From contig NZ_FRBW01000001.1 in the NCBI RefSeq assembly GCF_900142725.1, forward strand, positions 186,001-250,000: DNA of 64,000 nucleotides, given 5' to 3'. Positions 48,554 through 51,807 of the stretch are shown piece after piece. This DNA is from Roseibium suaedae. Its GTDB lineage: Bacteria > Pseudomonadota > Alphaproteobacteria > Rhizobiales > Stappiaceae. The position numbers and the translations under genes are program-made. How positions within the stretch are numbered: position 1 is the stretch's first letter; every line of letters begins with the position of its first letter. Under the pieces are notes generated by a model. The model did not search any database, was not told the origin of the DNA, and saw nothing but the letters and a program-made list of their open reading frames with translations.

Positions 48554-48835
48554 ATGGATCTGCCTGTGCTTGAAAAGGATCTTGTCATCGTCAATCAGCG
48601 GGGCCTCCATGCCCGCGCCTCGGCCAAGCTGGTCAAGTTGGTCGAGACCTTTGATGTTGAAGTCTATGTCTCCAAGGATGGGCAGACTGTGGGCGGCACG
48701 TCCATCATGGGCCTGATGATGCTCGCTGCCAGCCCCGGGTGCCGCATTCATGTGGCGGTCAGCGGCAATGAAGCTGACAGTGCCCTGGCGGCGATCACGG
48801 ACCTTGTCGAAGACGGGTTCGGCGAAAACGACTGA
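48554..48835 (+). CDS. HPr phosphocarrier protein
   Basis: 93 residues from ATG 48554 (a TTG one codon earlier is possible). QRGLHARASAKLVKL has the catalytic His, and GGTSIMGLMMLAAS has the regulatory Ser that HprK targets. It passes phosphate from EI to EIIA proteins. Called ptsH or NPr in related genomes. It ends the PTS-regulator cluster; the next gene is more than 230 bases on. Confidence 0.96.
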   Translation: MDLPVLEKDLVIVNQRGLHARASAKLVKLVETFDVEVYVSKDGQTVGGTSIMGLMMLAASPGCRIHVAVSGNEADSALAAITDLVEDGFGEND

Positions 48836-48932
48836 CGCCACTCCAGCGCGTCGCATCTTTCTCTCATTGTTAGTTTTTCCGCCTTCCTGAAACTTGGGAA
48901 GGCGCGGCTTGTGCTGTGTCTAGAGTCAAAAA

Positions 48933-49006
48933 GAACCAGTTTCGGTTCTTTTGATAGAATTGAACCAAATTTAGTTCATTAGATAGAATTGAACCAGTAA
49001 TAGTTC
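48933..49006. repeat. Three 29-bp-spaced repeats with inverted GAACCA-N6-GTTC cores, upstream of the satD-like gene
   Basis: Cores begin at 48933, 48962 and 48991, exactly 29 bases apart. Each is GAACCA, six variable bases, then GTTC, and the two complete units share a GATAGAATT tail. A TTGAAC and TAGAAT pair spaced by 18 bases (48960-48989) lies inside the repeats and looks like a promoter. The layout suggests a multi-site operator over the promoter. The last core ends 66 bases before the start codon of the satD-like gene. Confidence 0.75.
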
Positions 49007-49072
49007 TTTCTGTGTGACTGTGATAGGCTGCTGACCTGCAAGAGCGTGATGTCAGGCGCGGAAGGAGGTCTA

Positions 49073-49747
49073 ATGCGGAAGGAAACCGGAGGCGGCCGCT
49101 TCATTGCGGTCATGGGGGACCTGGTCTCCAGCGAGAGCGTGACCTCCAGAGCGCAGCTTCATCAGAATTTCAATAATGCGGTATCTGCCGTAAATGCGCA
49201 ATTTGCCGTCAACCTGTCATCCCCATTGACGATTACCTTGGGCGATGAGTTCCAGGGACTGACCCTCCAGGCCGCAGAGGCTCTGCGGATCGTGCTTGCC
49301 CTGCGGCTGCGGCTGCTACGGGCCGGGGCGCTGTGCCGGTTCGTGATCGGGCCAGTCGATTTGGCGACGCCGCTCAACAAGGACCGGGCCTGGAACATGA
49401 TGGGCAATGGTCTGGCCCAGGCGCGCGAGCGGCTGAATGACAAGAAGGATGGCAACGCCTACCGGTTCTCCTTCTATCGGGACAAGCCGCTTTCCGGATT
49501 GCTGGAAGCGGTCGGCAAGGCGCTGACCCTGACGGAAGAGGGCTGGACACCGACACAGGCAAGTTATGTTCTGTCCCATATTCTGGATGGGGCGGATGTG
49601 CCGGAAATTGCCGCAAAGAATGAAGTGACCGAACGGGCGGTCTACAAGGTGCTGGCCGCTGCGAACCTGGGTTTCTATCAGGATCAGGTTGAGGCCTTGC
49701 TGGTGTTTCTGGGAAGCCGGGATGAAGCTGGGAGCGAGAAGGAATGA
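49073..49747 (+). CDS. SatD-family protein
   Basis: 224 residues from ATG 49073 behind a near-perfect AAGGAGGTC site. FIAVMGDLVSSESVTSRAQLHQNFNNAVSAVNAQF, SPLTITLGDEFQGL, then RFVIGPVDLATPLNKDRAWNMMGNGLAQARE match the SatD family. The last 60 residues (SHILDGADVPEIAAKNEVTERAVYKVLAAA) look like a helix-turn-helix, so it could bind the repeats upstream. SatD was first named in the Streptococcus mutans sat acid-tolerance operon; its biochemical role is not settled. Its stop overlaps the next gene by four bases. Confidence 0.8.
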   Translation: MRKETGGGRFIAVMGDLVSSESVTSRAQLHQNFNNAVSAVNAQFAVNLSSPLTITLGDEFQGLTLQAAEALRIVLALRLRLLRAGALCRFVIGPVDLATPLNKDRAWNMMGNGLAQARERLNDKKDGNAYRFSFYRDKPLSGLLEAVGKALTLTEEGWTPTQASYVLSHILDGADVPEIAAKNEVTERAVYKVLAAANLGFYQDQVEALLVFLGSRDEAGSEKE

Positions 49748-50244
49748 CCGGGATCTTCGAGCAGGTGATGATCGGGTTGGGTTACTTCGTCTTTCTGCCT
49801 CTCATTTGGTGGGCAGGAAACGGCCTGATCAAATGGGTCGTCACATCCTCCGTCAAAACGGTCGTGCCTCAGTCTTCCATCTCCCCGGAGCAAGGGGGTG
49901 GTTCCGAAGAGATCCAGACTTCAAGCCAGCAGCAGGATGCTGACAGCAAAGAGCTCAGGGCAGGGCGCGTGATTGGCGGGCTGGAGCGCCTGCTGATTCT
50001 GACCGGACTTCTTCTCGGGAAATGGGAAGTGCTGGTCGCTGTGATCGCCCTGAAAACCACTGCCCGCTACAAGGAACTCGATAAGCAGATCCGCGCAGAA
50101 TATTTCCTCATCGGGTCCCTGTGCAGCATCCTTTGGGCCGTTGCGATTGCGGTCCTGCTGCTGCTTTACGACAGGTTTGCTGGATTTGGCCTGTTTCCCT
50201 CCGGTCTCCTTGGTCAGCTTGGTCTGCCTGGCTTGAAAATCTGA
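49744..50244 (+). CDS. Membrane protein paired with the SatD-family gene, resembling the C-terminal half of DUF3307 proteins
   Basis: 166 residues. One membrane segment is near the N-terminus (about 8-30), a polar Gln/Ser-rich linker spans 38-75, and two more follow (about 82-105 and 122-145). RVIGGLERLLILTGLLLGKWEVLVAVIALKTTARY and the following AEYFLIGSLCSILWAVAIAVLLL resemble the end of DUF3307 proteins as I remember them. The gene overlaps the satD-like gene (ATGA), so the two are translated together. Its role is unknown. Confidence 0.7.
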   Translation: MTGIFEQVMIGLGYFVFLPLIWWAGNGLIKWVVTSSVKTVVPQSSISPEQGGGSEEIQTSSQQQDADSKELRAGRVIGGLERLLILTGLLLGKWEVLVAVIALKTTARYKELDKQIRAEYFLIGSLCSILWAVAIAVLLLLYDRFAGFGLFPSGLLGQLGLPGLKI

Positions 50245-50256
50245 CGCTTCAAATCG

Positions 50257-50276
50257 ATATAAAGAAATCTTTATAT
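50257..50276. promoter_or_regulatory. Perfect palindrome upstream of ahcY, candidate SahR-type operator
   Basis: ATATAAAGA-aa-TCTTTATAT is a perfect inverted repeat (9-bp arms) 143 bases upstream of the ahcY start, only 12 bases after the membrane-protein stop codon. ArsR-type repressors sensing S-adenosylhomocysteine (SahR) bind A/T palindromes before ahcY and methionine-cycle genes in proteobacteria, which fits. I saw no SAH- or SAM-riboswitch structure in this leader. Confidence 0.55.
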
Positions 50277-50418
50277 CTCCATTGCTACATGAGGCGGTCC
50301 GGGTTATATACAGGCGCCAATGGGATGGCATGTTCTCCGCAAGGGGAGCGCCTTCATGTGTGCCAAACCCCGTCATCCATATGCTGCCTCGCGCAGAGCA
50401 ACCATTCAGGACGTTTTC

Positions 50419-51807
50419 ATGACCGACTACATCGTCAAGAACATTGAACTTGCGGATTGGGGCCGCACCGAAATTGAAATCGCCGAGCACGAGATGCCGG
50501 GCCTGATGGCCTGCCGCGCCGAGTTCGGTGAGAGCAAGCCTCTGAAGGGCGCCCGTATTGCCGGTTCCCTGCACATGACGATCCAGACCGCCGTTCTGAT
50601 CGAGACCCTGGTCGCCCTGGGTGCTGAAGTGCGCTGGGCATCCTGCAACATCTACTCCACCCAGGACCAGGCTGCTGCTGCCATTGCCGCTGCCGGTATT
50701 CCGGTCTTCGCCATCAAGGGTGAAACCCTGGAAGAGTATTGGGATTACGCAGACAAGATCTTCGACTTCCCGGAAGGCGCGAACATGATCCTGGACGATG
50801 GCGGCGATGCGACGCTGTACATCCTCCTCGGCGCACGTGTCGAAGCTGGCGAAACCGGCCTCCTCGACAATCCGGGTTCTGAAGAAGAAGAGATCCTCTT
50901 CGCGCAGATCAAGAAGCGCATGGCTGCCAACCCGGGTTGGTTCACCAAGCAGAAGGCTCTGATCAAGGGCGTTTCCGAAGAAACCACCACCGGCGTTCTG
51001 CGTCTCTATGAAATGCAGAAGAATGGCCAACTGCCGTTCCCGGCGATCAACGTCAACGACAGCGTCACCAAGTCCAAGTTCGACAACCGTTACGGCTGCC
51101 GTGAGTCCCTGGTCGATGGTATCCGCCGCGGCACCGACGTCATGATGTCCGGCAAGGTTGCCGTGGTCTGTGGCTATGGTGATGTGGGCAAGGGCTCCGC
51201 TCAGTCCCTGGCAGGCGCTGGCGCCCGCGTGATCGTGACCGAAATTGACCCGATCTGCGCTCTGCAGGCGTCTATGGACGGCTACGAAGTCAAGACCATC
51301 GAGCAGGCCCTGCCGGAAGGCGACATTTATGTCACCGCGACCGGCAACAAGGACATCATCACCCTTGAGCACATGAAGGGGATGAAGGACATGGCCATCG
51401 TCTGCAACATTGGCCACTTCGACAATGAAATTCAGGTCGCAAGCCTGAAGAACGTTCAGCGCCGCCCGGTCAAGGACCAGGTCGACATGTATGTCTTCCC
51501 GGATGGCAAGCGCATGATCCTTCTGTCTCAGGGCCGTCTGGTGAACCTTGGCAACGCAACCGGCCACCCGAGCTTCGTGATGTCCGCAAGCTTCACCAAC
51601 CAGGTTCTGGCTCAGATCGAGCTCTGGACCAAGGGTGAGCAGTACGGCAATGAAGTCTATGTGCTGCCGAAGCACCTGGACGAAAAGGTGGCCCGTTTGC
51701 ACCTTGAAAAGCTCGGTGTTACCCTGACTGAACTGACGGATTCCCAGGCCCGATATCTGGGGATTAACCAAACCGGTCCGTTCAAGTCCGAGCACTACAA
51801 GTACTGA
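50419..51807 (+). CDS. ahcY: Adenosylhomocysteinase
   Basis: 462 residues from ATG 50419 ([30 protein letters not shown]); the open frame back to 50320 is leader sequence. [49 protein letters not shown], the NAD-binding [16 protein letters not shown] and the C-terminal KSEHYKY are diagnostic. It splits S-adenosylhomocysteine into adenosine and homocysteine and so relieves product inhibition of methyltransferases. A palindromic operator lies upstream and a terminator downstream. Confidence 0.98.

Follow-up and report, generated by a model that had tools for sequence, protein, structure and literature searches.

A satD gene and its membrane partner probably form an operon autoregulated by SatD through palindromes at a 28–29-bp pitch

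Three evenly spaced palindromic repeats in Roseibium suaedae stand before a satD gene that overlaps a gene for a membrane protein, and the locus raises the question of what reads the repeats and what the two genes do together. We analyzed it within a window of 64,000 nucleotides (assembly GCF_900142725.1, contig NZ_FRBW01000001.1, positions 186,001–250,000), and all coordinates below count from the first letter of that stretch. The satD gene (49,073–49,747, + strand) encodes 224 amino acids and matches the Pfam SatD family PF16264 with 64.8 bits (E = 1.1e-17), above the curated cut-off of 29 bits; the same profile also matches all 79 members of our SatD alignment, A2, at E ≤ 1. The sequence AGGAGGT lies directly ahead of the satD ATG. 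The membrane partner gene (49,744–50,244, + strand, 166 amino acids) shares the tetranucleotide ATGA with the end of satD, and the pair sits between the PTS genes EIIA-man and HPr on one side and ahcY on the other. In all these respects, family, ribosome site, overlap and neighbors, the initial annotation was correct.

The initial annotation had placed the repeats at positions 48,933, 48,962 and 48,991 with an exact 29-bp pitch, and a position search and TRF agree on the same three-copy array upstream of satD. The core of each repeat is a 16-bp palindrome of the form GAAC-N8-GTTC. The three putative operators recovered by repeat and palindrome searches, GAACCAGTTTCGGTTC (48,933–48,948), GAACCAAATTTAGTTC (48,962–48,977) and GAACCAGTAATAGTTC (48,991–49,006), have no strand assigned and are separated by 29 and 29 bp from start to start. 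The second overlaps the −35 element of a weak promoter-like sequence, TTGAAC-N18-TAGAAT (48,960–48,989, + strand), which is present within the array and covered by the repeats as described earlier, but which, with one match against 0.6 expected, is no more frequent than chance. In the whole 5.14-Mb genome, an exact GAAC-N8-GTTC pair at 28–30 bp occurs only at this locus, and no second exact array that would indicate a wider regulon was found. Single exact GAACCA-N6-GTTC sites number 25 in the genome, compared to three for the reversed control. An RNA element was also considered; there was no Rfam match across 48,800–50,450.

Arrays of this kind recur before satD in distant lineages. When the 250 bp upstream of satD were analyzed for repeat lags, with a threshold of at most 5 of 100 shuffles scoring as well, the best lag was 29 in 21 loci and 28 in nine; another 14 loci were significant at other lags, including two at 58 and one at 56. 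A joint palindrome-and-repeat statistic was then calculated over lags of 20–40 for the window and 79 loci, excluding L079, which is cut inside satD. At the same threshold, the best lag was 28 or 29 in 40 of the 80 upstream regions, while the shuffled null was flat over lags. By group, these were 27 of 61 Proteobacteria, 12 of 15 Bacteroidota and the single clostridium, with none of three Chlorobi. A score of at least 18 with a best lag of 28 or 29 was found in 34 of 74 satD upstream regions, compared to 10 of 4,318 control windows of 186 bp taken elsewhere in the same loci. The initial annotation had named missing repeats ahead of close homologues as a possible refutation; the close homologues do carry them.

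The sequence of the half-sites varies with lineage: GAACC, GACCC, ATCCC or AGCCC, GAAGT and GATAC in Proteobacteria, and TTTCAC or TTGCA in Bacteroidota. The satD upstream region of Diplocloster carries TATAGC-type units at an exact 29-bp pitch, with about seven operator units in a row before this clostridial satD (L089:5722–5927). Two haloarchaeal plasmids have GTTCG...CGAAC palindromes 29 bp apart, which none of 100 shuffles equalled in either case, and two further plasmids carry pairs with a 28-bp spacing (equalled by 0 and 2 of 100 shuffles). No array was found upstream of the divergent SatD-like genes of L139 and L140. Archaeal promoters are unlike bacterial ones, and since the pitch is common to bacteria and archaea, it is most simply explained as being set by SatD. 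That the pitch is fixed while the sequence changes, on different promoters, would fit a spacing dictated by the protein, with bound dimers touching each other. Between haloarchaea and Bacteroidota, the half-sites change along with the recognition helix but the 28–29-bp spacing stays the same, which suggests that selection acts on the geometry of a protein assembly more than on its sequence.

The part of SatD that might do the reading lies at its C-terminus. A helix-turn-helix region, proposed in the initial annotation, is predicted for residues 158–205 (49,544–49,687, + strand), based on weak Pfam helix-turn-helix matches in a part of the members, with which the secondary structure of the AlphaFold model agrees. 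The predicted recognition helix comprises residues 187–196 (49,631–49,660, + strand) and includes R188, a position whose link to the operator sequence was first seen by eye, after which all alignment columns were ranked. Sixty proteobacterial sequences were scored against seven half-site classes; 44 gave a clear assignment, while 16 unclear ones, nine of them with H188, were excluded. Loci with R188 had GAACC in 13 of 18 cases, the remainder being GACCC (two), GAAGT, GAATC and GATAC (one each). Those with H188 had GACCC in 14 of 15 cases and ATCCC in the other, and all eight with Q188 or P188 had ATCCC or AGCCC. Residue 188 ranked first among 206 SatD columns, with an adjusted mutual information of 0.528 (runner-up, residue 165, 0.499), and kept first place (0.506) when the set was dereplicated to 24 loci. 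The best window of 14 residues, first of 202, started at residue 185 (184 when dereplicated) and corresponds to the recognition helix. Such a ranking is partly shielded from phylogeny, since all columns share the same one.

A base-by-base scan used 36 of the 60 loci, with 24 left out, and paired half-site position 4 with residue 192, position 1 with residue 188 and position 3 with residue 194. Of 34 loci with K192, 33 have C at position 4; the single N192 locus has T there, and the single Y192 locus has G. For position 2, residues 79 and 144 came first, both outside the helix, and residues 217, 34 and 108, also outside it, ranked high as well. A stricter, tree-based sign test on supported branches, comprising only three independent pairs for each association, gave averages of 1.7 pairs in the same direction, 0.0 opposite and 1.3 without difference for GAACC–R188, and of 0.9, 0.5 and 1.5, respectively, for GACCC–H188. 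Because the operator sequence varies by lineage and residue 188 is the most strongly associated of the 206 columns, SatD itself very probably reads the repeats. Together, these results give a tentative residue-to-base code for SatD operators.

Short palindromes around a promoter-like site could suit any dimeric regulator, and the repeats might be used by some other host protein, or serve as a DNA or RNA structure, with SatD merely adjacent. One locus would fit this: in G040, a genome of the same genus, an orphan partner gene and two operators at a 29-bp pitch (equalled by none of 100 shuffles) occupy the site between HPr and ahcY (L112:1770–2401), so that the operators precede a partner without SatD, which was not found in that genome by either protein or profile search. 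The spacing, however, is tied to satD across phyla even where the sequence differs, the operator class tracks a residue of SatD itself, and the paired array is unique in the genome and without an Rfam match, all of which make another reader very improbable.

We therefore favor the model in which satD and its partner form a stand-alone operon, autoregulated by a two-domain SatD through phased palindromes, and give this model as a whole a probability of about 0.78. The helix-turn-helix of SatD would bind two to several palindromes of 16–20 bp, placed every 28–29 bp ahead of satD, and SatD on the array would set the amounts of both SatD and the membrane partner. It would probably repress rather than activate, and neighboring bound dimers may touch each other. 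Autoregulation, which the initial annotation had proposed, is now well supported by comparative sequence evidence: arrays at 28–29 bp before satD in several phyla of both Bacteria and Archaea, and the association of residue 188 with the operator.

What the N-terminal part of SatD contributes is suggested by its predicted fold. The AlphaFold model of SatD has a pLDDT of 95.2 and a pTM of 0.91, and shows strands and helices in the order strand-helix-strand-strand-helix-strand (residues 9–97, 49,097–49,363, + strand), followed by helices that include the helix-turn-helix. A Foldseek search with the model matched 33 PDB chains at E ≤ 0.001. One is the Cmr2/Cas10 structure 4doz; the other 32 are nucleotidyl cyclases and include 7r65, a cUMP synthase from Burkholderia. 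The matches (E = 3.5e-5 to 1e-3, probability 1.00) place the predicted model in the class III cyclase fold; TM-scores were modest, with query-normalized values of at most 0.46 among the 50 matches listed. The mCpol protein OptS of the Panoptes system (9mnr) matched with E = 2.9e-3, weaker than the cyclases. In a viral fold library, the best SatD matches were cyclase and GGDEF domains, with a weak match of sigma-70 region 4 to the C-terminus; none reached E ≤ 0.001. The N-terminal domain would thus share its palm fold with mCpol/Cas10 proteins and class III nucleotidyl cyclases, a resemblance that the initial annotation had missed.

Eleven SatD residues are the same in all 79 sequences: D16, S20, G57, D58, E59, F60, Q61, R89, G113, R118 and W158. 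D16 lies at the end of strand 1 and D58 in the following hairpin between strands 2 and 3 of the model, which we take to be the places of the cyclase metal aspartates. We consider it fairly probable, going by the model, that the cyclase-like domain senses a ligand or nucleotide, and its input may be a nucleotide with a metal.

Sequence comparison did not detect this kinship. Comparing SatD with class III cyclases by hhalign gave a probability of 0.5 with eight cyclase domains and at most 1.8 with 21, and the divergent SatD-like pair from L139 and L140 gave 3.8 against cyclases. No solved structure was found for the window SatD by sequence search, and the SatD profile matched nothing better than E = 0.14 among solved structures. 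An HMM of the divergent pair, run against 359 genomes, found one further protein, a class III cyclase (PF00211), at E = 2.2e-4.

These observations bear on whether SatD is itself an enzyme, either a nucleotidyl cyclase or an oligonucleotide synthase, with a helix-turn-helix that merely tunes its own level. The predicted cyclase fold and the invariance of both metal-type aspartates and R118 would agree with this, as would the HMM match to a class III cyclase in one genome, which, however, corresponds to an E-value of only about 0.08 over all 359 genomes. Class III cyclases have a transition-state motif of an asparagine and an arginine. At position 115 of SatD, aligned by eye with the asparagine of this motif, 78 of 79 sequences have A, S, T or G. 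We consider the enzyme reading unlikely.

The initial annotation had described the membrane protein as DUF3307-like, an identity that we reject for the window protein: it has no match to DUF3307 (PF11750) in Pfam at E ≤ 5, and only one of 60 partners matched that family in a Pfam scan. Single partner members matched DUF4293 (E = 0.0038) and DUF92 (E = 0.0072). The window partner belongs to no Pfam family and to no credible family in NCBIfam, PHROG or PADLOC; no solved structure was found with the partner profile by sequence, and a fold search gave nothing better than E = 2.5. Its predicted model is all-helical (pLDDT 81), with no beta domain and no soluble sensor domain. The partners share a conserved core at about residues 76–128 (49,969–50,127, + strand), with the pattern GxxIGxLER ... 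ALKxxxR ... AEYFLIGSxxS, in which G78, E81, R82, K104, R108, G124 and S128 are invariant in 60 sequences.

Of 84 loci, 81 have a partner HMM match immediately after satD, and two of the other three stop at a contig end. The 84 loci comprise 80 kept out of 368 SatD relatives found in the genome scan and four plasmid loci; as the HMM was built from the window partner and those of 59 of the tested loci, the count measures adjacency and not independence. An in-frame partner start codon at the 4-bp overlap is present in 33 of 60 loci, by a choice of start that favored that place. A recurrent two-gene unit without a characterized function had been suggested in the initial annotation, which had named beforehand a failure of the genes to co-occur elsewhere as a possible refutation; satD and its partner do co-occur.

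The neighborhood of SatD and DUF3307 described there is real in other lineages, where fusions follow satD or a SatD-like gene, but the form in the window has no DUF3307 part. In the clostridium Diplocloster (L089), on the haloarchaeal plasmids L175 and L176, and in the alphaproteobacterial locus L139, the partner core lies behind a DUF3307 domain. From these sequence matches, the window partner appears to be an unnamed module, separate from DUF3307 and fused to it in some lineages. When 372 genomes of the class were searched with the partner profile, four matched: those of the window, L139, L140 and L141. Beside the DUF3307-plus-partner fusion, L139 (360–1761) and L140 encode the divergent SatD-like proteins, with GDGWQ replacing GDEFQ; together these match the SatD profile with 4.8e-16, and the L139 protein was missed by Pfam SatD. 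At L141 (730–1255), a membrane gene resembles the partner (E = 7.9e-6); SatD is missing from this 2.5-kb locus.

Outside the Roseibium locus, the pair is found in various surroundings. SatD occurs on seven plasmid records, and on the Agrobacterium plasmid pAt (L177:2868–10262), the pair lies amid genes for DUF4365, antitoxin, nucleotidyltransferase/HEPN and HipA proteins, surroundings that resemble a defence or toxin–antitoxin island. In six Bacteroidota loci (L082, L083, L085, L091, L093 and L099), it lies between gyrase B-type and topoisomerase IV/gyrase A-type genes, identified by gene clusters and checked with Pfam in L082 only. Five loci of the Roseibium group (L010, L014, L015, L016 and L018) have a cyclopropane-fatty-acid-synthase-type methyltransferase before the pair, replacing HPr, as seen by eye and checked with Pfam in L015 only. 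We also considered a phage or viral origin; no relative was found in viral contigs or phages, the seven plasmid records being found instead. A search for known defence families gave no PADLOC match for the seven proteins searched.

The purpose of the autoregulated operon may be to restrain the membrane protein. One way to picture this is a guard similar to Panoptes or to a toxin–antitoxin system, in which SatD would silence a harmful membrane protein, either via a nucleotide product or by contact combined with repression, and loss of SatD or its product would free the membrane protein. By analogy, the gene order and predicted fold parallel Panoptes, in which, according to the parts of the reports available, a palm-fold mCpol enzyme silences a membrane effector (PMC12657218, PMC12657230). 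In Streptococcus pyogenes, according to the available text of PMC11323703, satD, present in 178 of 249 genomes, stands alone among accessory genes in reaching the top quarter of essentiality; to be needed where present and missing from many strains would be expected of an antitoxin. The distribution of SatD is patchy: among 385 genomes sampled from the class, only that of the window matched Pfam SatD, and a protein search matched nine of 87 genomes of the family, again including the window's own, while the HPr–ahcY site is empty in one relative (L116). The plasmid records, one of them amid antitoxin, HEPN and HipA genes, would fit as well, as would a Dyadobacter locus (L084:5986–6800), where satD is kept, without a 28–29-bp array upstream, and the downstream partner has lost the conserved core.

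On the other hand, G040 keeps its orphan partner ORF open with two operators, and since it does so in the apparent lack of SatD, simple lethality of the partner is disfavored, even though the nearly invariant Y120 has been lost (by eye). The partner-like gene of L141 similarly has no SatD nearby. The Panoptes effector has transmembrane helices and a beta-barrel domain, as stated in the available text of PMC12657230, whereas the modeled SatD partner is all-helical and lacks a soluble sensor domain. PADLOC gave no match, and the available text of PMC11323703 names no partner gene beside satD. We consider the guard possible, with the odds against it.

Alternatively, SatD could be a homeostatic sensor that responds to a small nucleotide or metal and adjusts a useful membrane protein involved in stress, secretion or transport, with no toxicity involved. 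The signs of an autoregulated array and the conserved ligand-type residues are consistent with this, as is the tolerance of an orphan partner in G040. A link between the sat genes and acid tolerance in S. mutans, as cited in the available text of PMC11323703, points the same way. Alone, however, this leaves unexplained why a gene should be essential in the strains that have it and yet absent from others, and we put the homeostatic sensor at somewhat less than an even chance. A bolder form of the guard would be an ancient system of Bacteria and Archaea, in which nucleotide chemistry by the cyclase fold silences a membrane effector and the same polypeptide limits its operon at a 28–29-bp pitch. 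This we consider improbable.

Under the favored model of an autoregulated operon, the SatD unit can be compared with several known systems. SatD has been a named family with no mechanism described in the available texts of PMC11323703, PMC10326533 and PMC10210942, from which the operator array, the cyclase-like fold and the constant partner are likewise absent; among the matches listed from the open-licence literature, we recognized no paper on the fold of SatD, its binding to DNA or its partner, which is weak evidence of absence. The family now gains a predicted fold, a probable DNA target and a constant membrane partner, and its role is directly testable. The operator is unusual in keeping its 28–29-bp spacing across groups as distant as the haloarchaea and Bacteroidota, although its sequence follows the reading helix. 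SatD resembles the class III nucleotidyl cyclases, including Pycsar-type cUMP synthases, in its predicted fold and two metal-type aspartates, and differs in having no profile match to them, a C-terminal helix-turn-helix and no clear transition-state asparagine. As in type II toxin–antitoxin operons, the first gene encodes a predicted DNA-binding protein that apparently regulates its own operon, and the second gene overlaps it; the satD unit differs in the predicted cyclase fold of the first protein, the integral membrane nature of the second and the phased arrays. With Panoptes (OptS mCpol and OptE/2TM-beta), it shares an arrangement of two genes, for a (here predicted) palm-fold protein and a membrane protein, with the palm gene seemingly needed where present, and differs by its helix-turn-helix and operator arrays and by a partner without a beta domain. 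If the ancient guard were true, the SatD unit would be a relative of Panoptes in logic, with a built-in repressor.
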